Positions 3,001-30,816 of a stretch of 30,816 nt of DNA are shown here, piece by piece (within the stretch, counting starts at the first letter, position 1; each line of letters begins with the position of its first letter). Made by a program: the position numbers and the translations under genes. The notes under the pieces were generated by a model. The model saw nothing but the letters and a program-made list of their open reading frames with translations. It was not told where the DNA came from and ran no database searches. Origin of the DNA: a virus; IMG/VR virus record IMGVR_UViG_3300025630_000035, positions 1 through 30,816 of that record, one strand, 5' to 3'.

Positions 3001-4661
3001 TCCAGCAGCGGGAGACGTTCTCCGGTGATGCGGGCGCGAGTGGCCACATCCTGCCCGACCTCGGACGGTGTGAACGGCAGCTCACCCTGACCGGGGAACA
3101 AGTCAGCCTGACGCTGCTGCGGGGTGGTATCCGGGGGGATGACCGGCGGGATCGGGCCAGCAGGCCGCACACCAAGCTGCTGTGTCGTGGGGAACATCTC
3201 CGCCTGCGGAGCTTCTTCGGTGAACCCCGGTGTCGTCGGGCGTGGCGGAGTCGGGATGTTCGTTGACGGAGGCGCACCATTGGGAGTGCCCAGCAAGTTG
3301 ACCGGCTCGCCCGGGTCCATGGCTGCCTGTTCGTCGCGCGGCTTGATGGTGATGCCGCCTTCGAGCCCGTTTGCTTCCTTGTTGTCCCTGCGGATTTCCG
3401 CCAGCTTGCCAATGCCGCTGGCAGGGCCAGCCATACCAGCGCCAGCCAAGAAGCTGATGGCTACTTCTTCGCCATACTTGGCCATTACCAGTGGTGCGAG
3501 GATAGCCAGTTCGTAGTCGTTGAGCTGCTTGCGCAGCTCAGGGTCAAACACGACCTTGTCGGCAACCAGTGCCAGTGCTTCGGCGGTGCCTTCCGCCGTC
3601 GCACCGCCAGCGGTCGCCAGTCCGACTTTCTTGAGCCGCTTAGCCCCTGTCACCTTCTTCGCGGTCGACTTGGCGATGGCAGAGGTCAGACCTTTGCTAG
3701 CGGTCTGCCGGGTGGCGTCCGTGACCAGCCGCTTGAACATGGGGCTTACGGCCTTGACCACCACACCAGCGCCGACCGACTGTACAGCAGTCTTGAACAC
3801 AGACGTGTTGATGATGTCTGCCTGAACGTCGGGGTTATCCGTGTCCAGACCTCTGGTCTTGGCCTCCTCGAACGAAGAGTTGTACTCACTCGGGAAGATG
3901 GACAGCGCCAGACCAATAGCGCCACCGGCTACAGTGCCTATGGCCGTACCAACCGGCCCAGCGATAGTGCCGATGGCACCGCCCAGCTTGGCGAATGCCA
4001 GCGATGAGCCCACGGCGGTTACAAGTGACGGTGCGCTACCCTCGATGGCGTCTTGCACCTTGCCGCTGAACGACCTGTTGGCGTCGATGGCTGCAGAGCG
4101 CGCCTGCTCGTCTTCGGACAGGCCGATACTCTGTCCTGCTTCGATCAGGTCAGCGCCGGTCTCGGGAGCACCTTGGCTGTCGAGAAACTGCCCCGCACCT
4201 GTTACATAGCTGGACGCCAAATCCTGCGCGCCGGTAGCAATCTGATCCAGTGTTCCGCGCGGCTCTGCAATACTGCGGAGGTAATTGCTGTAGTCGGTCA
4301 GCGGCACCGGCATCCAGTCGGCGGCTGGCGTCTTGGGGGCATTGGGCTTGTTGATGAGCGCCTGACTGTCGAGCGCTGCCTTGTACTCATCGCGCCCGAA
4401 CTCCACGCCCCCCACGGAGAACTTGCCGAGGCTACGGCTGTAGAGCACTCCGCCGACGTTCTTTGCCGGCGTCTTCAGCCCTGCACCCCTGATCTGGTTG
4501 AGCGCGCGCTCTCCGATGAGGGCGGCGTCCGCAGTGTTAGGCGCTACGCCAGTGGCCCCCAGTGACGGGAGGTTGCTGCGCAGGCCCGGGCGGCCAGTGT
4601 ACAGGTCGTTGTCCATGGCGTTCCTCAGCGTTGTGCCGCTCTGGAGGGTGCGATCTACCAT
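1..4661 (-). CDS. Giant phage protein, N-terminal part (putative polyvalent / internal virion protein); runs off the left edge
   Basis: An open minus-strand frame starts with ATG at 4661, directly after the stop of the upstream gene (TAGATG), and stays open to base 3, giving at least 1553 codons; the C terminus lies outside the window. I translated it from the sequence. Residues about 222-257 are a Gly/Ala-rich hydrophobic stretch and 340-420 another Gly/Ala-rich helical region. Ala/Gln/Glu-rich coiled coil covers about 594-634. Lys/Ala linkers hold four copies of a 5-residue repeat (789-808) and two copies of a 16-residue repeat (831-862). A very acidic run lies near 1292-1309. The last residues (KPKVGVF) resemble segments I remember from giant polyvalent phage proteins that carry helicase, methylase, ADP-ribosyltransferase or peptidase domains further on, but no catalytic domain is visible here. 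Its place after the internal virion genes suggests an ejected protein. Coding is certain; function is inference. Confidence 0.85.
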   Translation of the reverse strand, partial: MVDRTLQSGTTLRNAMDNDLYTGRPGLRSNLPSLGATGVAPNTADAALIGERALNQIRGAGLKTPAKNVGGVLYSRSLGKFSVGGVEFGRDEYKAALDSQALINKPNAPKTPAADWMPVPLTDYSNYLRSIAEPRGTLDQIATGAQDLASSYVTGAGQFLDSQGAPETGADLIEAGQSIGLSEDEQARSAAIDANRSFSGKVQDAIEGSAPSLVTAVGSSLAFAKLGGAIGTIAGPVGTAIGTVAGGAIGLALSIFPSEYNSSFEEAKTRGLDTDNPDVQADIINTSVFKTAVQSVGAGVVVKAVSPMFKRLVTDATRQTASKGLTSAIAKSTAKKVTGAKRLKKVGLATAGGATAEGTAEALALVADKVVFDPELRKQLNDYELAILAPLVMAKYGEEVAISFLAGAGMAGPASGIGKLAEIRRDNKEANGLEGGITIKPRDEQAAMDPGEPVNLLGTPNGAPPSTNIPTPPRPTTPGFTEEAPQAEMFPTTQQLGVRPAGPIPPVIPPDTTPQQRQADLFPGQGELPFTPSEVGQDVATRARITGERLPLLERPVAPQPEELSRAEAEALGQQAFDFDTPTTMGSAFSEAMRASQAQQAAAEQAAEAARQAQQAEAAASAQRQTEVDAAEKQRAKQAGSAFDGKAAWDDTQKDLLKGRVVREYGDLNKNAQMEWNAAVAANESPTVLGNMYETMRGRVRKSKVGDEIKRRSAEANAPDVWEDIRQEVIDGKDPSKLQGTDLRPFEDLTAPAKAQWQEAVQKGTANAELYKKLRTRVSVQAANLRREAKAAADKAAADKAAADKAAAEKAKKTATNKLRAQQKKKKSAEKTAEKPTPESEAEPAEKTAEKPTPESEAEPAEKPAAAPLVTKYTLKEEPDKAAKGAKQTAEIRKIVADKDNKVVTSNKQKALKNAKEKLDEATKEERAAKKALDDATGLNPDKLKKLESTHERAQNNLEEAQKAYVAAGGTTPEGMALVADFIAAVSEVSDSEADATSEVDVTETRESAPDEDTSVNALEAQNRAGAGDDRPAGGFTKGDDRRVTKALGTPAKTRNAATRTNEQVDSRLERTERQQAAEEKGFKGRVQSGDTTAAANRDAAAAVVAKGLIADMAERARKATVPLNQRIAETKEAYELATRAEVLAETAVELDDPSDRKRSRPHKNDASKAVTAAEDALSDAETKVYDIETLAADIASQTDVRIAEKDLTGTEETPGLEKLITQATGLIDKAKAKIQQAMNHAAKAADSSATGNYTVVEDNGEYKLEPTGSGAGAAPVIVRAGPGRRATIEDAPDTDVDVDDDDDIDGVGDDPVEAMRDLIDAARSTESDEEAIFYLSDVVRVADKKLPEDASGPAKEAKRLAEEFVGETVRDDGSVDVEFSEQVETARILAKRERLSQASEGFSARDAINAYFAEVKALTAVKSAMDAVNASGTTARVTRDVLNQLNRAHTAMREQLAKAKNKAEADKLRKKQSIGGVHYSEYVKGGPQFFNTKTVDGKTRVVRKDSPTGDTGRPKLAGLDKVESPVNLGKAKMIAKTFMSKLAIKPKVGVFR
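2074..2169 (-). repeat. Two tandem 48-bp repeats inside the giant gene
   Basis: Two exact adjacent 48-bp copies (2074-2121 and 2122-2169) encode a 16-residue Ala-Glu-Lys-Pro-rich unit twice. The exact identity suggests a recent in-frame duplication in a flexible linker. Confidence 0.9.
2236..2295 (-). repeat. Four tandem 15-bp repeats inside the giant gene
   Basis: Four consecutive 15-bp units (plus-strand unit tcagcagcagcctta, the last with one change) encode AAADK/AAAEK-type peptides on the minus strand. They form an Ala/Lys helical linker and keep the reading frame. Confidence 0.9.
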
Positions 4662-20553: not shown

Positions 20554-20575
20554 GTGAGGCCCCGAAGGGCCTCAC
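20554..20575 (-). other. UUCG-capped hairpin between head and fibre genes
   Basis: A perfect 9-bp stem (GTGAGGCCC with GGGCCTCAC) closes a TTCG loop as read on the minus strand, the very stable C(UUCG)G tetraloop. No T-run follows, so it is not a classic terminator. It may stabilise the 3' end of the capsid message or attenuate transcription into the fibre genes. Confidence 0.8.
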
Positions 20576-21031: not shown

Positions 21032-21051
21032 TAGGGGGCCGAAGCCCCCTA
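21032..21051 (-). other. UUCG-capped hairpin between two head genes
   Basis: On the minus strand TAGGGGGC pairs with GCCCCCTA around a TTCG loop, an 8-bp stem with the C(UUCG)G cap. It begins just downstream of the 148-aa gene and precedes the ribosome site of the 140-aa gene. No T-run follows. Confidence 0.8.
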
Positions 21052-23541: not shown

Positions 23542-23757
23542 TCAGGATTTTGCCGCTAGATCAGGGGCCTTGTGCAACAAGTTGCGGAGCTCTTTGAGTA
23601 CTTGGCACCGCCCCTGCGCGTGTGCCACGTTCTGCCCAACATTGGGCAGTTGCTCCAATTCATGCATGTACCACGAGTCTACCCACGTATACAAGTGTGG
23701 GAATTGCCTGACTACCGTGGCCATGGCCTTTACCGTGTCGGGGTCTGGCTGTTTCAT
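23542..23757 (-). CDS. Small conserved-type protein between portal and scaffold, 71 aa
   Basis: The ATG at 23757 overlaps the portal stop (ATGA). The product (residues 14-66: TVVRQFPHLYTWVDSWYMHE, then AHAQGRCQVLKELRNLL) follows a pattern of small phage proteins, 'FP.l..W...w...EL..LP....n...aQGR.qvL.eL...L', that often occupy this spot. The function is unknown. It may help portal or scaffold assembly. Confidence 0.75.
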   Translation of the reverse strand: MKQPDPDTVKAMATVVRQFPHLYTWVDSWYMHELEQLPNVGQNVAHAQGRCQVLKELRNLLHKAPDLAAKS

Positions 23758-25802
23758 GCCATGCCCGCTGCCGTGTTGTTATCCTGCCCGCCCTTAGGGG
23801 TACCGTCAGGGTGCATGGGCGTAGCTGTCTGAGGCTGCTGGTTTCCCATAGCCTGCTGGGCCAGCTGCTTGGCCTGTTCGCGGCTCTGGCTGGACATGGC
23901 CTCCCTCGAAGGCACTACTTGGTCTACAGGCATCTGCAGACCCTTGGCGATCTCCCGAAGGATAGCCGCCCGGCCATCGGTGCCGATGATCTCTGCATCC
24001 AGCGGGTTGGCCGTAGCGTTGAGGAACTCGACCCGCCTGACGTTGACCGTCTCCTTGACGGCCAGATTGATCGCACCACGCGGTATGATGTCCAGATCAC
24101 CCTTGATGCTGGGATCCGGCAGGTAGCGCATGTTGTACACGAACTGCCTGTGCACCACCGGGAACGTGATGTCGTTGTCGATGTGCATGACGACCTGCCG
24201 AATGCCCTTGCCGGCAGACCCCATGAGCATGGACAGCCCTGAAGCCGTACGCCCGGCACCCTGCACGTCGAGGTCGCCGTACACATACGCAGGAATGCCG
24301 CTGTGATCGTCAGCCAGTCGGGAGAACTTGTCGTAGACGCCCATCAACTCGTTGGCACGGGAGTCCGGCTGGTTGAACCGGACAGCGGGAGCCGAAGACC
24401 CCATGGGGTCGTTGATGACCTGCCAGATCTTCCACGGGTGCATCTGGGTAATGTCTTCGTTGGGCGGAATGCGATCGACGTTGATCTCTACCTGCGGTCC
24501 GGACGCAATGCCCATGTTGTTGACCAACCCACGGGCCGCTGCATTGCACACGCCCTGCAGGTCCTCGATGATCTCGGGGATGGCCCGCCCCCAGAACGAC
24601 CCGGGAGTCTTGATGAAGCTGGTCTTGGCGTAGGGCTTCTCGCCCAGCGGGTCATAGTTGAGGACAGCCTTGATGGTGTGGTTGCCCACGATCCAGACGT
24701 TGGCGTCGTATTCCCGCGCCTCGTCGGGGACCTCTTCCTCGGACATGCCCCACTCACGGAGCATGGCCCCGCTGACCTTGCCCCAAAACTCCAACGTGTC
24801 GAACATGTCCGTAGGCGTCATGTAGGCGTGGAACTTACGCTCCTCTTCCTCCTTCTGAAGCCGTACGTCCTCGTTGAACCATGAGTTGGTGTTGCCGTTC
24901 TTGAGCACTTCGCGGATAGCATCGTCGTCGTACCCGGGTACGCCAATCAGGTCAGCCAGATCAGACCGGCTCATCCTGTGGTGCTCGAACAGGTACCCGT
25001 CGCTGAGCCTAGTCACGCCGGGCTCCGGATAGATGCTGAAGGGGTCCACGCGTTCGTACTCGGGGCCGAGGCGATCCTTGGGCACCACGTTGACGGTCCC
25101 GTCGGGGCCGGGCTCGTACCCCAGCGTGCGCTGCCTGCGTACAACGGGGCCCTTGAGGAAAGCCGCCGGGAACGTGACAAGGTCGCTGATGAACTCGTTG
25201 AAGGCTTCCGGCCAGCCACCCTGCACGAACTGATCCCGGATCTTGGTCTTCATGCGGTTGGCGGTATCCTGCGCTTCCTGCAGCAGCGCGAACCGGTAGT
25301 CCTGCTCCGTGGTGCTGCGCAGCTCACGCATCCGGTCCAGCGCCGGAGCTTCACCACTGGCCTCGAGCTCACGCACAACGCGTTGAGAGAACAGCGCCTC
25401 GATCTCGGCAGCGCTGTCGGGGTCCAGCTCGGGGATGGGCGTGGGCGACAGGTCCCACGGTGGCGACCCTTGGTCGAGGAGGATGTCGCGCAGCCAGCTC
25501 TCGGCCGCCCGGCACTTGACCTCGGTCAGCATCATGAAGACTTCGGAGCCACCAGCTTGGCGTATGCTGTTCAGTTTCTCCGGCTCGTACTCCCCGTTGC
25601 GCTGCCGCAGGGCCTTGAGCATGATAGTCTCGATGGGCTTCTTGGCGATACGCGCCGCATCCCAGCACCGGCGCATGTACGCCGTTATGCCCAGTACAAG
25701 TTCGTCGTTCTGACGGTCACTTGCTTCCTTGCGACGACGGTCGGATTCTTCCCGCTCGATAGCGTCGTTAGGAACAACGCGTAGCATTGTCAGTCCAGCC
25801 AT
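23754..25802 (-). CDS. Portal protein, 682 aa
   Basis: The length and text are those of a large podovirus-type portal. The N terminus has a charged helix (NDAIEREESDRRRKEASDRQ) and a segment (WDAARIAKKPIETIMLKALR). The clip/wing region follows with PPWDLSPTPIPELD, DLVTFPAAFLKGPVVRR and YERVDPFSIYPEPG, the 'v.p.d.ypdP.a' hallmark. The stem/crown region includes PEIIEDLQGVCNAAARGLVNNMG and a C-terminal Gln-rich barrel (EQAKQLAQQAMGNQQPQ). It forms the dodecameric vertex through which DNA enters. Its ATG at 25802 lacks a strong ribosome site; an internal ATG at 25787 is a weaker alternative. A terminator and probable promoter lie just upstream. Confidence 0.92.
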   Translation of the reverse strand: MAGLTMLRVVPNDAIEREESDRRRKEASDRQNDELVLGITAYMRRCWDAARIAKKPIETIMLKALRQRNGEYEPEKLNSIRQAGGSEVFMMLTEVKCRAAESWLRDILLDQGSPPWDLSPTPIPELDPDSAAEIEALFSQRVVRELEASGEAPALDRMRELRSTTEQDYRFALLQEAQDTANRMKTKIRDQFVQGGWPEAFNEFISDLVTFPAAFLKGPVVRRQRTLGYEPGPDGTVNVVPKDRLGPEYERVDPFSIYPEPGVTRLSDGYLFEHHRMSRSDLADLIGVPGYDDDAIREVLKNGNTNSWFNEDVRLQKEEEERKFHAYMTPTDMFDTLEFWGKVSGAMLREWGMSEEEVPDEAREYDANVWIVGNHTIKAVLNYDPLGEKPYAKTSFIKTPGSFWGRAIPEIIEDLQGVCNAAARGLVNNMGIASGPQVEINVDRIPPNEDITQMHPWKIWQVINDPMGSSAPAVRFNQPDSRANELMGVYDKFSRLADDHSGIPAYVYGDLDVQGAGRTASGLSMLMGSAGKGIRQVVMHIDNDITFPVVHRQFVYNMRYLPDPSIKGDLDIIPRGAINLAVKETVNVRRVEFLNATANPLDAEIIGTDGRAAILREIAKGLQMPVDQVVPSREAMSSQSREQAKQLAQQAMGNQQPQTATPMHPDGTPKGGQDNNTAAGMA

Positions 25803-25999: not shown

Positions 26000-27394
26000 T
26001 CATGTCCACGCCGCAGCGCTCACCTGCCGGACCTTCCTAGGCCCTGCCACAAGGGCTCCGTCCTGAGCGTGGCTGACGTGCAGCATCATGTACTGCAGCG
26101 CCTCCGCGATGTGGGAGTGCTTGCCGGCCTTGCCGGTCTTCTCGATCCCGCCATTCTTGTCGAACCGGTACCCACCCATCATGGCAGCCTTGAGCTGGGT
26201 GCAGCGTGGATCGACCAAGAAGGCGCTGTCGCCATCGACCTGCCGCATGAGGAAGTCATCGACAGCGTTGAGCCGCGCACTGGTCCGGTTGGTCTTGGCC
26301 GGAATGACCTTGAGCCCCTCGGCCCGGATGATGTCCACGGCGCTGCGCTCGTCGGTCTGCGCCCGCTGGATGCCCGCTGGATCGACCACTATCAGGATGG
26401 GGGCTGCGGGAAAGCGCTCGTACAGCTTGGGCTTGAGCAGCGTGCGCACGAACCGTTGCACGCCCATGTCGAAGCTCACGAGCTCGTCAAACACCAAGGC
26501 CCGGCCCCTAGGGTCCTGCTGGCCGATCACCGCAGCAGGTGTAAGCCCCAGATCCATCCCGACGATGACAGGGCGTACGCCATTGATAATAGGCCGCAGC
26601 GGCGATGTCGCCATGTGGTAATCGGGCCGGAAGTACTGATACACAGGTTTTCCAGATGAGCTGAGTCCGTACTCTCCGTCAATGAAGACGCGTATGTACT
26701 CTTCCGATCGTCCTTGCGTGTCATAGTAGCCCTCCGGCAGGTTCTCGATGTTCTCTGCGTGTACGCTGCGACCCGACGGCTGGACGAACACATCCCAACC
26801 GTTGTCGTTCGGACTGACACCATCCTTTGGATCGAGCTTCTCCATCTGGTAGTACCACCATGTGTCCATGGTAGGCGGGTTGGTATCCCCCCACATCCCG
26901 AACCACGTGGGGCCCCCATCCTTGGATGACGGGAACCGCCCGATGCGCTTGGACATGGCGTCCACGATCTCGGGGTGGATGTCACGGCACTCGTTGAACC
27001 ACGCGAACGTCAGCTCCAGCGAGTTGAGGTTGGCCACGTCGTCCGCGTCATCGAGGGCGCGGAACATTATCTCGCACTCTACGTCGCCAACGGCAAAGAA
27101 GTATGTCTTCGTTGTGCGCATGTACCTGCCGCAGGGCCCCGGCGGGAACCAGTCGAGGAAGGTCTTGATGGTGGTGTCCATCAGCTGCCGGGCCGTCTCG
27201 CGGACGACAGCAGCCCGCGTCCTGCGCTTGCCGGTAGCGTCAGGGGCCTGCAGGGAAGCCCTGCGCACGATCTCGAAGCAGCAGGTGACGGACTTGCCCG
27301 AACCGACGGGACCACGGAGCGTGCGCATCCGTGCATCGGACTCCATGAATTTCCGCCCCGTCGGAGGGGGCGTGTAGTTAATCTGTAATGACAT
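26000..27394 (-). CDS. terL: Terminase large subunit
   Basis: The 464-aa product has both enzymatic halves. The N-terminal packaging ATPase has Walker A at residues 28-35 (GPVGSGKS), an adenine-proximal segment (RAAVVRETARQLMDTTIKTF) and a Walker B-like LELTFAWFNECRDI with its catalytic Glu, followed by a coupling-motif region (GMWGDTNPP). The C-terminal RNase H-like nuclease has VGMDLGLTPAAVIG with the first metal-binding Asp, and later acidic residues (VVDPAG, FLVDPRC). It cuts concatemers and drives DNA into the portal. The start overlaps the upstream small gene by 17 bases. The C terminus ends at TGA, 100 bases before the terminator. Confidence 0.94.
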   Translation of the reverse strand: MSLQINYTPPPTGRKFMESDARMRTLRGPVGSGKSVTCCFEIVRRASLQAPDATGKRRTRAAVVRETARQLMDTTIKTFLDWFPPGPCGRYMRTTKTYFFAVGDVECEIMFRALDDADDVANLNSLELTFAWFNECRDIHPEIVDAMSKRIGRFPSSKDGGPTWFGMWGDTNPPTMDTWWYYQMEKLDPKDGVSPNDNGWDVFVQPSGRSVHAENIENLPEGYYDTQGRSEEYIRVFIDGEYGLSSSGKPVYQYFRPDYHMATSPLRPIINGVRPVIVGMDLGLTPAAVIGQQDPRGRALVFDELVSFDMGVQRFVRTLLKPKLYERFPAAPILIVVDPAGIQRAQTDERSAVDIIRAEGLKVIPAKTNRTSARLNAVDDFLMRQVDGDSAFLVDPRCTQLKAAMMGGYRFDKNGGIEKTGKAGKHSHIAEALQYMMLHVSHAQDGALVAGPRKVRQVSAAAWT

Positions 27395-27641: not shown

Positions 27642-27874
27642 GTCTTGTCTCCCGGTTCCCCCAACAGGCCGACGATGATGCGTCTGGGCACTGCCTTGGG
27701 GCGTCTGTGGGTCGTCCCCCTAGGGGGCGCTATGATCGTCGTGTAGGACCACCCGTCCCTCGCAAGCTGTGCCTGCACGCGTTTGCACTCGGCGCTGGAC
27801 AGGAACAAACGAGCGGGCATCCCCCTGTACACCATGTCGAACTCAGGGGGAGTGTTCAATGGTCTTGGCCTCAT
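27638..27874 (-). CDS. Small hypothetical protein in the terminase operon, 78 aa
   Basis: The product contains FDMVYRGMPARLFLSSAECKR, quoted here only in outline, then VQAQLARDGWSY and a basic/proline tail ending in LLGEPGDKT. The C-terminal half is basic (RGTTHRRPKAVPRR). The ATG at 27874 gives a 32-base overlap with the small terminase gene; AAGGAG lies right next to it, which is too close for an ideal site. An internal ATG at 27835 would avoid the overlap. No function is recognised. Confidence 0.6.
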   Translation of the reverse strand: MRPRPLNTPPEFDMVYRGMPARLFLSSAECKRVQAQLARDGWSYTTIIAPPRGTTHRRPKAVPRRIIVGLLGEPGDKT

Positions 27875-28328
27875 CTCCTTCGCGTGATGTGACTGTCATG
27901 GTCTTGGCTTCGTCTCCGAAGTTGATGTTGATCTTGACCCCACCTGCCGCGAGGCCGTTGTCGTCGTCGTTGCGCGCCTCGAGGCCGGCCCACTTGACGG
28001 TGCTCTTGATGAGGTCGGCCTTCACTGCGGCGGACACGTTCGTGTCGTGGATCAAACCCCAAGAAGTTGTCAGAAGCTCTTCCGCTTGGGCCCGGGCCTT
28101 CATGCGGAAGGTCACGCCGTTGTCGCGGATGTCGGCACGATAGTCGTCTACCTGCCGGAGGAACACCGGGTCGGAGTTGTACGACAGGATGTCGGCAGTG
28201 GTGATGCCGTACCTGTCCCTGATCTCGTCCACGGTCTCCCCACTCCCCTCGAGGGCCAGTGCGATGTCGAACGCTACGCGGTTGGTCCACTTGGTGGTGG
28301 TCATGGGGGTGTTCAGCTGAGTGTGCAT
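27843..28328 (-). CDS. terS: Terminase small subunit
   Basis: The 161-aa product lies upstream of terL in the usual place. Residues about 16-50 form a DNA-binding helix-turn-helix (VAFDIALALEGSGETVDEI, then YGITTADILSYNSDPVF). The central helices (FRMKARAQAEELLTTSWGLI, then KADLIKSTVKWAGLE) form the oligomerisation domain typical of phage TerS. The C terminus (GGVKININFGDEAKTMTV) has a beta pattern that binds TerL in relatives. It recognises the packaging site. Neither ATG at 28328 nor the alternative at 28304 has a strong ribosome site, so the start is open. Confidence 0.86.
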   Translation of the reverse strand: MHTQLNTPMTTTKWTNRVAFDIALALEGSGETVDEIRDRYGITTADILSYNSDPVFLRQVDDYRADIRDNGVTFRMKARAQAEELLTTSWGLIHDTNVSAAVKADLIKSTVKWAGLEARNDDDNGLAAGGVKININFGDEAKTMTVTSREGDEAKTIEHSP

Positions 28329-28340
28329 GGGAGGAATGTA

Positions 28341-28955
28341 CTAGCGGGGCGGTAAGTGTGCAAGAGCATCCAGAGCCTGCTCCTTGGTAGGGAACGTCCC
28401 CAGATGTACACGCTTACCGTTCACACTGACCCGCGCCTCCCAGCCCGATTTGGACTTGGCACGCCGGGCACGGACCACGGGTGTTGCGTTGAAGCGCCGA
28501 TCAACGGTCTTGCGGGGATCCGCCTCACGGGCCTCTGCCTCTGTAGCGAAGGTGCCCACATAGTGCCTGCCCACCCACACCTTCCATGCAGTTGGTGACA
28601 ACTGCAACGTAACCGGGTCGTGCGTGTGCTTGCTGCTGCGGGACACGTTGTGCGACAGCGTTACAAGCCGCAGGTTGCTCCACCTGTTGTTGCTGGGGTC
28701 CTCGTCTATGTGGTCGACCACCAATTCATCGGGGGGCGGAGCCCCGGTCTGCATGGTCCATATGATGCGGTGCTGCAGATACGTGACCTTGTCGACGGTT
28801 ACATGCTTGTACCCGGCAGACCCCGCCCCGGGGCATATGGGGCCCTTGGAGCATCTGTGGCTCGTCGGGTTCTTCCAGCGAAGCTCGCCTGTGTCCGGGT
28901 CGTACGACAGCAAGTAACGGAGCCGCTCGGCGGTTGGCAGTGGTTTCTTGTACAT
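28341..28955 (-). CDS. HNH endonuclease with AP2-like DNA-binding domains, 204 aa
   Basis: AAGGAGG five bases before ATG 28955 fixes the start; a TTG one codon earlier is less likely. The HNH core lies at residues 60-105: QHRIIW (His62), VVDHIDEDPSNNRWSNLRLV (Asp81-His82, Asn90, Asn94) and SHNVSRS. Two AP2-like segments follow: AWKVWVGRHYVGTFATEAEA and GWEARVSVNGKRVHLGTFPT. This domain order is typical of free-standing homing-type HNH nucleases in phages. Some phage HNH proteins next to terminase assist cos cleavage, but the AP2 fusion favours a mobile nuclease. It is the first gene after the leftward promoter. Confidence 0.9.
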   Translation of the reverse strand: MYKKPLPTAERLRYLLSYDPDTGELRWKNPTSHRCSKGPICPGAGSAGYKHVTVDKVTYLQHRIIWTMQTGAPPPDELVVDHIDEDPSNNRWSNLRLVTLSHNVSRSSKHTHDPVTLQLSPTAWKVWVGRHYVGTFATEAEAREADPRKTVDRRFNATPVVRARRAKSKSGWEARVSVNGKRVHLGTFPTKEQALDALAHLPPR

Positions 28956-28980
28956 CAAAGCCTCCTTATTATCATTATGG

Positions 28981-29009
28981 GTTATACATTACTGGGGGGA
29001 GGTTTGCAA
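28981..29009 (-). promoter_or_regulatory. Leftward sigma70-type promoter for the packaging operon
   Basis: On the minus strand TTGCAA (29009-29004), 17 bases, TATAAC (28986-28981) lies 25 bases before the HNH start codon. The -10 box matches five of six consensus bases and the -35 four of six. Confidence 0.68.
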
Positions 29010-29133
29010 GCATCGAAAGTCCGCGCTCGCCTACATTAGGGGGGCGGGGTCGAATTGCCAATCCATGTCCCCCCTCCCCCCTCCCGTCTTACGTTACAGG
29101 CCAAGCCCGGAAAGCCCGGAAAACCGGCATGAA
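29010..29133. other. Control region between divergent promoters; no gene seen
   Basis: This stretch between the -35 boxes of the two divergent promoters is GC-rich, with runs of G and C (29040-29048, 29069-29085) and a direct repeat of AAGCCCGGA at 29103-29120. I see no open frame with a ribosome site. It may hold activator or repressor sites. Confidence 0.5.
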
Positions 29134-29162
29134 TTGACCGCTGGTGTAAAGTGTGCTCTAAT
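29134..29162 (+). promoter_or_regulatory. Rightward sigma70-type promoter for the small-gene operon
   Basis: TTGACC (29134-29139), 17 bases, TCTAAT (29157-29162): each box matches the consensus at five of six positions with ideal spacing. It is the best promoter in the window. Transcription would start near 29169. Confidence 0.78.
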
Positions 29163-29170
29163 TAAGGGGT

Positions 29171-29193
29171 CGATGCAGAGACGTACTGCATCG
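29171..29193 (+). promoter_or_regulatory. Inverted repeat at the rightward transcription start (operator or leader hairpin)
   Basis: CGATGCAG (29171-29178) and CTGCATCG (29186-29193) are perfect 8-base arms around 7 bases. Lying immediately after the -10 box, it could be a repressor operator or a 5' hairpin in the RNA. Confidence 0.6.
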
Positions 29194-29228
29194 GCAGGGC
29201 AAGCCGGGCAACCGGCCCGGCCCCCTGC
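29194..29228 (+). other. Second leader hairpin
   Basis: GCAGGG (29194-29199) pairs with CCCTGC (29223-29228), and inside it CCGGGC (29204-29209) pairs with GCCCGG (29215-29220). It ends 36 bases before the start codon, so the leader of the rightward operon is strongly folded. Confidence 0.55.
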
Positions 29229-29264
29229 TGTTGGAAACCCGACGGGGATGTGAAAGGCTGTATC

Positions 29265-29660
29265 ATGGCTGACATGACAGCGAAGTTGTGGGACGGCAAT
29301 GTGTCCGTCGCCGAGACGAAGTTTGATTCCGGGATCTACGGGATCAAGTCTCACAAGGCGGGAAAGCACAATGCCGAGGATCCGGCCGCGATGGTCAAGA
29401 AATTGACTGACGCCAAGGTTCCGGTCGACGGCTGGTCCGTCTGGCTCGACGGTGAAGAATTTGGGTCGTTGCGGCGCCCCAAGGGGCAGTACGGCAAGCC
29501 GTACACTGCAGCCCAGTTCTTGAAGATCGTCAAGCTGGCCGACAAGGTCGAGCTGGTCGCAGTACGCAGGCGTTTCCCGGCGCCGGTGCTGAAGTTCACC
29601 ACCGCCACGGCGGCGGCGCACACGACCAAGGCCAACCCGAACGCACCTCGCGTGCTCTAG
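29265..29660 (+). CDS. Unknown phage protein, first gene of the rightward operon, 131 aa
   Basis: I chose ATG 29265 (MADMTAKLWDG), with AAAGG seven bases before it, over a GTG at 29250. The product has no membrane segment or catalytic motif. Residues 1-75 alternate strands and helices (VSVAETKFDSGIYGIKSHKA, then MVKKLTDAKVPVDGWSVWLD). Residues about 80-100 form a helix (YTAAQFLKIVKLADKVELV). The C terminus is basic and Thr/Ala-rich. I recognise no family. Promoter, leader and position opposite to the late genes suggest an early or separately controlled product. Confidence 0.75.
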   Translation: MADMTAKLWDGNVSVAETKFDSGIYGIKSHKAGKHNAEDPAAMVKKLTDAKVPVDGWSVWLDGEEFGSLRRPKGQYGKPYTAAQFLKIVKLADKVELVAVRRRFPAPVLKFTTATAAAHTTKANPNAPRVL

Positions 29661-29667
29661 GGTCCAC

Positions 29668-29693
29668 GGAGGGGCGGCGCAAGTCGCCCCTCC
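29668..29693 (+). repeat. GCAA-capped hairpin 1 (after the 131-aa gene)
   Basis: An 11-bp stem with one G-T pair (GGAGGGGCGGC with GTCGCCCCTCC) closes a GCAA tetraloop. It begins eight bases after the stop codon and is one of four hairpins with the same cap in this operon. Confidence 0.85.
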
Positions 29694-29699
29694 ACTCTA

Positions 29700-29733
29700 C
29701 CCAGCCGGGCATCCGGTCCGGCTGGGATTTTTT
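29700..29733 (+). terminator. Rho-independent terminator after the 131-aa gene
   Basis: CCCAGCCGG (29700-29708) pairs with CCGGCTGGG (29718-29726) around 9 bases, followed by A and a run of Ts to 29733. It would end or attenuate transcription before the next three small genes; no promoter is obvious between them, so read-through is likely. Confidence 0.78.
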
Positions 29734-29754
29734 CTCCAAAATTGGAGGGTGACC

Positions 29755-29958
29755 ATGCTTCGCATGTTCATTGATACCGATCAGGCCAAGCTTGATCGTG
29801 AGTTCCGGGCCGAAGCGCCCGAAATCCGCCGCAAGCGCACGCTTGCTGAGTTCCGCGACTTTCGCGAGACTCGGATCCCGCGAGGGACTGGCATCGTGGC
29901 CGCCGGCACCGGCCGCCACGGAATGGCTGAAGGTTGCCGCTGGATCAAGGGCGAGTGA
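29755..29958 (+). CDS. Small basic unknown protein, 67 aa
   Basis: GGAGG lies six bases before ATG 29755. The product is helical and charged in its first half (IDTDQAKLDREFRAEAPEIR, then RTLAEFRDFRETR). The second half is Gly-rich (GTGIVAAGTGRHGMAEG). No known domain, signal peptide or membrane segment is visible. Position after a terminator and before a GCAA hairpin matches the other small genes of this block. The strong ribosome site supports translation; the function is unknown. Confidence 0.7.
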   Translation: MLRMFIDTDQAKLDREFRAEAPEIRRKRTLAEFRDFRETRIPRGTGIVAAGTGRHGMAEGCRWIKGE

Positions 29959-29965
29959 CCTGACC

Positions 29966-29989
29966 GCTCCCCGGCGCAAGCCGGGGAGC
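29966..29989 (+). repeat. GCAA-capped hairpin 2, identical to hairpin 3
   Basis: GCTCCCCGGC (29966-29975), the GCAA loop and GCCGGGGAGC (29980-29989) make a perfect 10-bp stem. The 24 bases and some flank (ACC before, ACC and TTCCCCA after) recur at 30173-30196. No T-run follows, so it is not a simple terminator. Confidence 0.92.
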
Positions 29990-30015
29990 ACCTTCCCCAG
30001 AAAGGGAGAACGACC

Positions 30016-30165
30016 ATGGCGAAAGCCAAGAAGCCCTCGAGCCCCACGGCCGAGGAATACCAAGAGCTGGCGAAAGTCGCTCTTGGCCTGACCAAGCTGG
30101 TCGCCCAGCTTAATCGGGAAAACCGCCGGCTCTTGACCCAGCTGTACGGGGTCAAAGAGTCCTGA
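30016..30165 (+). CDS. Small coiled-coil protein, 49 aa
   Basis: I translated this short frame by hand. GGAG lies seven bases before ATG 30016 and the stop is TGA at 30163-30165. The product has a basic start (MAKAKKPSSP) and a helix with Leu/Val at heptad spacing (residues 12-44: YQELAKVALGLTKLVAQLNR, then ENRRLLTQLYG), a likely leucine-zipper-like dimer. No known domain is recognised. Together with the next gene it forms a pair of tiny coiled-coil proteins between hairpins; interaction between them is inference. Confidence 0.68.
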   Translation: MAKAKKPSSPTAEEYQELAKVALGLTKLVAQLNRENRRLLTQLYGVKES

Positions 30166-30172
30166 GCCCACC

Positions 30173-30196
30173 GCTCCCCGGCGCAAGCCGGGGAGC
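30173..30196 (+). repeat. GCAA-capped hairpin 3, identical to hairpin 2
   Basis: The same 10-bp stem and GCAA loop as at 29966-29989, starting eight bases after the stop of the 49-aa gene and followed by TTCCCCA and the next gene's GGAGG site. Confidence 0.92.
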
Positions 30197-30221
30197 ACCC
30201 TTCCCCAACATGGAGGACACC

Positions 30222-30353
30222 ATGACGGTGAACGAAAAAGCTCTGCGGCTTGTCGCGCTCAAGCGGGACAAGGTCCGCAAGATGCGGGAGCTCGAGCGAG
30301 AGATCGCAGCGCTCCGCACCAAGATCACAGCCCTGCACCTCCGTGCAGGCTGA
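30222..30353 (+). CDS. Small coiled-coil protein, 43 aa
   Basis: I translated this frame by hand. GGAGG lies five bases before ATG 30222 and the stop is TGA at 30351-30353. The product (MTVNEKALRLVALKRDKVRK, then MRELEREIAALRTKITALHL) is a single very basic/acidic amphipathic helix with Leu/Ile heptads, suggesting a coiled coil. No known domain is recognised. It is the last gene before a clear terminator. Alone, such a short frame would be doubtful; the strong ribosome site, hairpin context and terminator support it. Confidence 0.65.
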   Translation: MTVNEKALRLVALKRDKVRKMRELEREIAALRTKITALHLRAG

Positions 30354-30358
30354 CCCCC

Positions 30359-30388
30359 ACCCTCCCGGCGCAAGCTGGGAGGGTTTTT
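30359..30388 (+). terminator. Rho-independent terminator with GCAA cap (hairpin 4)
   Basis: An 11-bp stem (ACCCTCCCGGC with GCTGGGAGGGT, one G-T pair) closes a GCAA loop and runs into TTTTT. It ends the rightward small-gene operon and shares its loop and closing pairs with the other three hairpins. Confidence 0.88.
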
Positions 30389-30481
30389 CTTTGCCCGCAC
30401 CACGCGGAACCACAGCCCGGCAGGGCACCACCTGCTCCGCTACGCTCCGCCATACGTTGGGGGCCTGTGGCAGCGACTCTT

Positions 30482-30506
30482 GGTAGGCAGTGTAGGGGGG
30501 CCTACC
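30482..30506. repeat. Inverted repeat with alternative pairings
   Basis: GGTAGGC (30482-30488) pairs with GCCTACC (30500-30506); inside it GTAGG (30492-30496) can pair with CCTAC (30501-30505). It marks the edge between GC-rich and AT-rich sequence. Confidence 0.5.
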
Positions 30507-30685
30507 GCGTAGCGCCTAGCATGTAACACCTCACGTCGTCAAACTATACAGTAAGTTGTTGCGTATTGAGTGTAACAGTAAACGTAACAGTGTATAGTAT
30601 TGTTCGGTTTACATATAGTTTCAGTAAGCCATTGATATTGCTAGTGTTTTTAAGTTTATCCGTGGATTTCCGGCAACTATCTAGT

Positions 30686-30711
30686 AACGTAAGGGTGTGA
30701 GACCTTACGTT
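30686..30711. repeat. Inverted repeat in the AT-rich end
   Basis: AACGTAAGG (30686-30694) and CCTTACGTT (30703-30711) are perfect 9-base arms around 8 bases. No T-run follows immediately, though TTTTT lies 9 bases further on. It may be an operator-like dyad or an RNA hairpin. Confidence 0.65.
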
Positions 30712-30757
30712 GCGTTTGCTTTTTAGATATAACGTATTGGAAAAACCTCAATGAAAC

Positions 30758-30782
30758 CATGGGGTTACCCATGTTACATGGG
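30758..30782. repeat. Three alternating CATGGG / CCCATG boxes
   Basis: CATGGG (30758-30763), CCCATG (30768-30773) and CATGGG (30777-30782) form two overlapping dyads with 4- and 3-base spacers. Regular spacing of 9-10 bases suggests a protein-binding array on one face of the helix. Confidence 0.55.
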
Positions 30783-30816
30783 AATTAACAAATCAGTATA
30801 TATATAGTATCTATAC

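Follow-up and report, generated by a model that had tools for sequence, protein, structure and literature searches.

The window analyzed here is an entire viral contig from IMG/VR, 30,816 bases in length, in which the larger recognizable genes all point leftward, on the minus strand. At its right end, divergent from this packaging and late operon, lies a rightward operon of four small genes (g1–g4), each of which is closed by a stem-loop. The features discussed below are:

23754-25802, leftward: portal/head-tail adaptor gene
26000-27394, leftward: TerL gene
27843-28328, leftward: likely small terminase (TerS) gene, assigned by position only, with no significant terminase match
28341-28958, minus strand: HNH gene between TerS and g1, with a weak AP2 match
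29134-29162, plus strand: promoter-like element, TTGACC-17-TCTAAT
29169-29264, plus strand: structured g1 leader, with a 10-bp stem at 29169-29195 and the loop AGACGTA
29265-29660, plus strand: g1, 131 aa, first gene, from an uncharacterized phage family
29668-29693, plus strand: hairpin h1, 11-bp stem, GCAA loop, -24.2 kcal/mol, 7 nt past the g1 stop
29700-29734, plus strand: intrinsic terminator h1b, 11-bp stem at 29700-29726, loop ATCCG, then ATTTTTTC
29755-29958, plus strand: g2, 67 aa, ribosome site GGAGGG
29956-30015, plus strand: linker 2, comprising the g2 stop, h2 and the g3 ribosome site
29966-29989, plus strand: hairpin h2, 10-bp stem, GCAA loop, -23.6 kcal/mol, 7 nt past the g2 stop
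30016-30165, plus strand: g3, 49 aa, ribosome site GGGAG
30163-30221, plus strand: linker 3, comprising the g3 stop, h3 and the g4 ribosome site
30173-30196, plus strand: hairpin h3, 10-bp stem, GCAA loop, -23.6 kcal/mol, 7 nt past the g3 stop
30222-30353, plus strand: g4, 43 aa, ribosome site GGAGG
30359-30392, plus strand: hairpin h4, 11-bp stem at 30359-30384, GCAA loop, -23.0 kcal/mol, 5 nt past the g4 stop, tail TTTTCTTT

A near-identical contig (L003, 99.8%) reaches 2.4 kb further right, through an AT-rich stretch and into additional rightward genes. This non-coding stretch (window positions 30500-30816 and L003 positions 3950-4290) carries short CTATCTA-type repeats, precedes the next rightward genes, and is a candidate origin. 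Two motifs flanking the operon recur in relatives: a C-rich motif, TCCATGTxCCCCCC (around 29062-29085, between TerS and the g1 promoter), which is possibly a packaging or regulatory site, and CCATACGTYGGGGG (around 30447-30465), directly past the operon terminator. Among the relatives examined, no close counterpart of the HNH gene was found at the same place. A host search via genome contigs returned two MAG contigs only, which gave no information on the host. Cultured phages with a related TerL are Rollin, Hodr, MEP301 and RHph_TM3_14A.

The promoter-like element upstream of g1, described as near-consensus in a first-pass annotation of this DNA, indeed matches the consensus at 10 of 12 positions, and a similar element (TTGACA-17-CTTAAT) precedes g1 in some relatives, among them L156 and L158. 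It is the only promoter-like site that we saw in the region. A stricter sigma-70-like consensus scan of positions 28400-30816, which demands an A at the second position of the -10 hexamer and covers promoters of the sigma-70 type only, did not report the element at 29134-29162 and yielded no site, in the linkers or elsewhere.

Open reading frames and in-frame codon usage agree on the four small genes proposed earlier; codon usage is positive for each of them (0.38 bits per codon for g1), while long antisense open reading frames were rejected as real genes on their negative codon score. The ribosome sites, which had been called good throughout, are strong before g2–g4 but weaker before g1, where we found only GTGAAAGG. 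None of the four proteins scored above the curated cut-offs of Pfam, and none had a significant match in PHROGs. The sole match to g2 came from the near-identical contig, and g3 and g4 have no known relatives and no significant family match. Compared with annotated phages at E ≤ 1, g1 had no relative except for one weak match of 43 residues; its moderately confident AF2 model (pLDDT 70) had no match in the PDB at E ≤ 0.001 and matched one unnamed protein in BFVD (A0A516LIA4, E 4e-4).

As had been reported, a GCAA-capped hairpin follows every one of the four stop codons, although a second hairpin after g1, h1b, had been overlooked. All four GCAA stems are perfectly paired over 10–11 bp, and h2 and h3 are, as previously noted, identical over 24 nt. 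When a 1.2 kb transcript was folded, almost every stem pair that was checked had a probability of about 1, the lowest value (0.79) being that of the outer pair of h4. Linkers 2 and 3, in which h2 and h3 are embedded, are 82% identical over 56 nt without gaps and 88% identical with gaps. We rejected a host or mobile repeat as the source of the hairpins, because the contig contains just two copies of the 24-nt hairpin and stems vary between phages; the ordinary host intergenic repeat without a conserved link to these genes, which the first-pass annotation had named as the finding that would undo its proposal, is thus not what we see. Two intergenic UUCG hairpins without a U-tract are also present in the late operon (20554-20575 and 21032-21051, minus strand), directly past stop codons and with a spacing of stop, hairpin and ribosome site like that of the g1–g4 operon.

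At the hairpins, Rfam returned only sub-threshold matches, to the BjrC68 and sX6 sRNAs, and a known RNA family was therefore rejected. These matches, together with the stable stems that bound each short cistron, are what could be said for hairpin-bounded small RNAs, as suggested earlier, or for RNase III processing sites. However, the Rfam scores fall far under gathering, the intervals between the hairpins are coding by codon usage and carry ribosome sites, and stems of 10–11 bp are short for RNase III. We consider this explanation highly improbable, and the earlier suggestion of small RNAs found no support.

We searched a g1 HMM against 80 fetched TerL-related loci. Homologs of g1 share 23–42% identity, lie upstream of TerS, are nearly always divergent, and were found in 26 of the 52 TerL loci whose upstream sequence spans 1.9 kb or more. 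Ten of these 26 g1-bearing loci contain two matches; usually the second is a further copy 1.2–1.7 kb beyond the first (L090, L098, L105, L108, L119, L121, L123, L136 and L143), followed directly in several cases by a U-tract terminator, while the two matches in L114 are fragments of one region. An equivalent of h1 follows g1 in nearly all relatives, with stems that differ in sequence, and most equivalents of h1–h3 have no U-tract.

The hairpins are not chance occurrences. A stem of at least 7 bp follows the stop codon in 39 of 43 members of the g1 family, compared to 76 of 2150 dinucleotide shuffles and 74 of 768 other genes of the same loci, and a GNRA loop is present in 22 of 43, compared to none of 2150 shuffles and 13 of 768 other genes; the 43 loci are related, so that these counts do not represent 43 independent events. 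Among 15 distinct stems, pairing is complete (100%), with changes on both sides at 7 of 9 pairs, in a set that had been preselected as hairpins, which makes the shuffle comparison the unbiased test. In L093 and L072, whose flanking sequences can be aligned, inspection showed that the h1 stems differ by two compensatory pairs. Furthermore, in 16 of 20 relatives without a detectable g1, an operon in the corresponding position shares this layout although its first gene is another one, and 14 of the 16 have GNRA loops. As pairing is maintained although stem sequences differ between phages and DNA homology is poor, selection appears to act on structure rather than on DNA identity. That the position of the hairpin past the stop is kept while stems and neighboring genes change also lends indirect support to the deliberate control of transcript ends that had been proposed earlier.

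The 18-nt core of the hairpin also occurs in unrelated viral contigs, in 58 distinct contexts, 22 of which (about 40%) have a T-tract, and there it looks like a generic stem. Seven of the 36 contexts without a T-tract lie between the stop of an open reading frame and a ribosome site, so that punctuation of this kind may extend past this clade.

The hairpins of the operon fall into two groups. If an intrinsic terminator is taken to be a GC-rich stem followed by a U-tract, h1b and h4 are terminators, and h1, h2 and h3, whose tails are ACTCTACC, ACCTTCCC and ACCCTTCC, are not. The T-rich tail of h4 identifies it as the operon terminator, in agreement with the earlier description of the last hairpin as a true one. 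It has been reported that the efficiency of a terminator 5 bp past a translated stop drops from about 90% to less than 10%, while one 28 bp past the stop works well (PMC4824070). Given this repression, the lack of U-tracts at h1–h3 and their position 7 nt past translated stops favor a role other than termination.

These observations bear directly on graded attenuation, in which the hairpins would be weak or conditional terminators and expression would fall step by step from one end of the operon to the other. Both h1b, which sits between g1 and g2, and h4 are canonical, with U-tracts, and in some relatives a U-tract terminator directly follows g1, so that the attenuation suggested in the first-pass annotation is plausible at h1b (29700-29726). 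It is less so at h1–h3, since these and most of their equivalents in relatives lack a U-tract, and termination is expected to be repressed at a distance of 5–8 nt from a translated stop (PMC4824070). As an account of the operon as a whole, we regard graded attenuation as unlikely.

Spacing is open to another explanation, namely that the stem insulates translation by blocking ribosome sliding or re-initiation, or by keeping the next ribosome site unpaired, so that each gene is initiated alone. The spacing is near-constant, with the stem about 7 nt past the stop and the next ATG typically about 16–30 nt past the stem; hairpins also precede the next start codon by 25–28 nt, a spacing that would equally well suit an effect on how the downstream gene is translated. 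However, behind the last gene the hairpin would have nothing to insulate, and we find this explanation rather improbable.

Linkers also mark places at which gene content differs between relatives. Where L125 and L110 have a single linker of hairpin and ribosome site, L151 and L152 have two copies of it with an additional 64-aa gene in between; L069 exceeds L067 by a 50-aa gene and its linker, and L120 exceeds L144 by a 72-aa gene and its linker. Three related pairs thus differ by the gain or loss of a whole unit of gene plus linker between repeated linkers, while in a fourth (L156 and L160) a 70-aa gene difference lies between two repeats of the ribosome site alone. Linkers within a phage are 79–88% alike in four of eight phages (the window, L151, L113 and L090), compared to 60% on average (sd 14%) for linkers of different phages, while the other four have linkers of their own without a clear excess of similarity. 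We infer that recombination between linkers is the simplest cause of these unit gains and losses, and the hairpin linkers may therefore serve as seams for gene addition and loss.

A stronger form of this proposal, that the linkers are kept primarily for swapping small genes, as has been suggested for PeSLs (see below), with RNA structure being secondary, would be consistent with the clean gain and loss in the three pairs, with the ribosome-site repeat in the fourth, and with the repeated linkers in the window. It does not account for the fact that pairing is maintained although stem sequences differ and linkers of different phages are on average only 60% alike, and we consider it to have little probability. 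Alternatively, the promoterless linkers of hairpin and ribosome site might constitute a modular gene-cassette system in a clade of uncultured phages, selected for structure and not for sequence. As such a linker would protect the 3' end of any inserted gene and supply it with a ribosome site of its own, genes could be added or removed with their neighbors undisturbed; this, too, we hold to be a doubtful reading.

The explanation that we favor, and to which we give about an even chance, is that of a short operon of accessory genes in which U-tract-free hairpins protect against 3'→5' decay and serve as punctuation in the transcript, while the linkers double as recombination seams. Two properties expected of a decay barrier, a stable stem-loop closing an internal cistron at its 3' end and the lack of a U-tract, are found at h1–h3. 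In E. coli, 26 of 34 upstream-stabilized gene pairs end just past a U-tract-free hairpin, and the menBCE operon contains several such hairpins in series (PMC5927463); cistron ratios in C. cellulolyticum correlate with the strength of stem-loops (PMC4423207). Since the layout recurs in many related phages despite differences in stems and genes, the hairpins were probably selected as RNA-stability barriers.

Under this model, the small accessory genes would be transcribed, divergently from the late operon, as one short unit from a promoter of the host type, each gene being closed by a very stable GNRA-capped hairpin with the next ribosome site close behind. After endonucleolytic cleavage of the transcript, h1–h3 would halt 3'→5' exonucleases, so that each cistron would keep a protected 3' end and steady-state levels could differ among the cistrons; we infer both the block and the difference in abundance from sequence features. 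The canonical terminators h1b and h4 would set the transcript ends. Since h1b is placed between g1 and g2, expression of g2–g4 probably depends on read-through, and since it starts 39 nt past the g1 stop, beyond the 28 bp at which a terminator worked well (PMC4824070), g1 is expected to exceed g2–g4 and is probably produced in excess over them. Over evolution, the repeated linkers would act as seams at which whole units of gene and linker are gained or lost.

Related phages that keep the punctuation while swapping genes and stem sequences amount to a natural repeated experiment in operon design. If the hairpins are indeed decay barriers, they represent a compact standard part with which cistron ratios can be set; if the linkers are seams, they show how small accessory genes can build up in a phage while their expression stays intact. 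In addition, the analysis draws attention to an uncharacterized family of first genes, found in half of those related phages whose upstream sequence was long enough to examine.

The statement in the first-pass annotation that no described system has this layout is too strong. As outlined in PMC5927463, which cites Chen et al. 1988, malE-malF, puf and menBCE are likewise cases in which a cistron within an operon ends in a stable hairpin that lacks a U-tract and protects the upstream mRNA, and menBCE and the phage operon share the serial arrangement. The hairpins of the E. coli survey, however, belong to host operons and lie mostly inside the next coding sequence (PMC5927463), whereas those described here come after every gene at a nearly uniform distance, mostly have GNRA loops, and persist throughout a phage clade despite gene turnover.

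Among phages, the promoter early stem-loops (PeSLs) of T4-type phages, stem-loop linkers tied to gene shuffling, are also comparable, as far as they are portrayed in PMC4503421 and PMC3950731 (after Arbiol 2010 and Comeau 2014). In that portrayal, PeSLs are stem-loops within intergenic cassettes that recur between small, variable genes, as are linkers 2 and 3 and their counterparts in relatives, and the cassettes flank genes that are gained or lost, as in L151 versus L125, L069 versus L067, and L120 versus L144. A PeSL as described there combines its stem-loop with a promoter, whereas the linkers of the phage operon have no sigma-70-like site and carry a ribosome site instead. The SAS/ESAS elements of Cluster K mycobacteriophages are also repeats at gene starts with a ribosome-site-like motif; they are found at non-structural genes, and in about half of the cases inverted repeats precede the motif (PMC3203893). 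The ESAS inverted repeats share a consensus and do not pair as RNA (PMC3203893), whereas the stems described here pair perfectly and are free in sequence. Furthermore, the conserved 13-bp SAS GGGATAGGAGCCC is absent from the sequences preceding g1–g4.

Intercistronic CUUCGG hairpins were reportedly described in phage T4 by Tuerk and colleagues in 1988. These are also stable tetraloop hairpins between phage genes, with UUCG loops where the operon studied here has mostly GNRA loops, and the two late-operon hairpins of this phage share the T4 loop type. The parts are of known kinds. Their combination, a GNRA hairpin and a ribosome site after nearly every small gene, in promoterless linkers that persist throughout a clade despite changes of genes and stems, differs from both PeSLs and ESAS.
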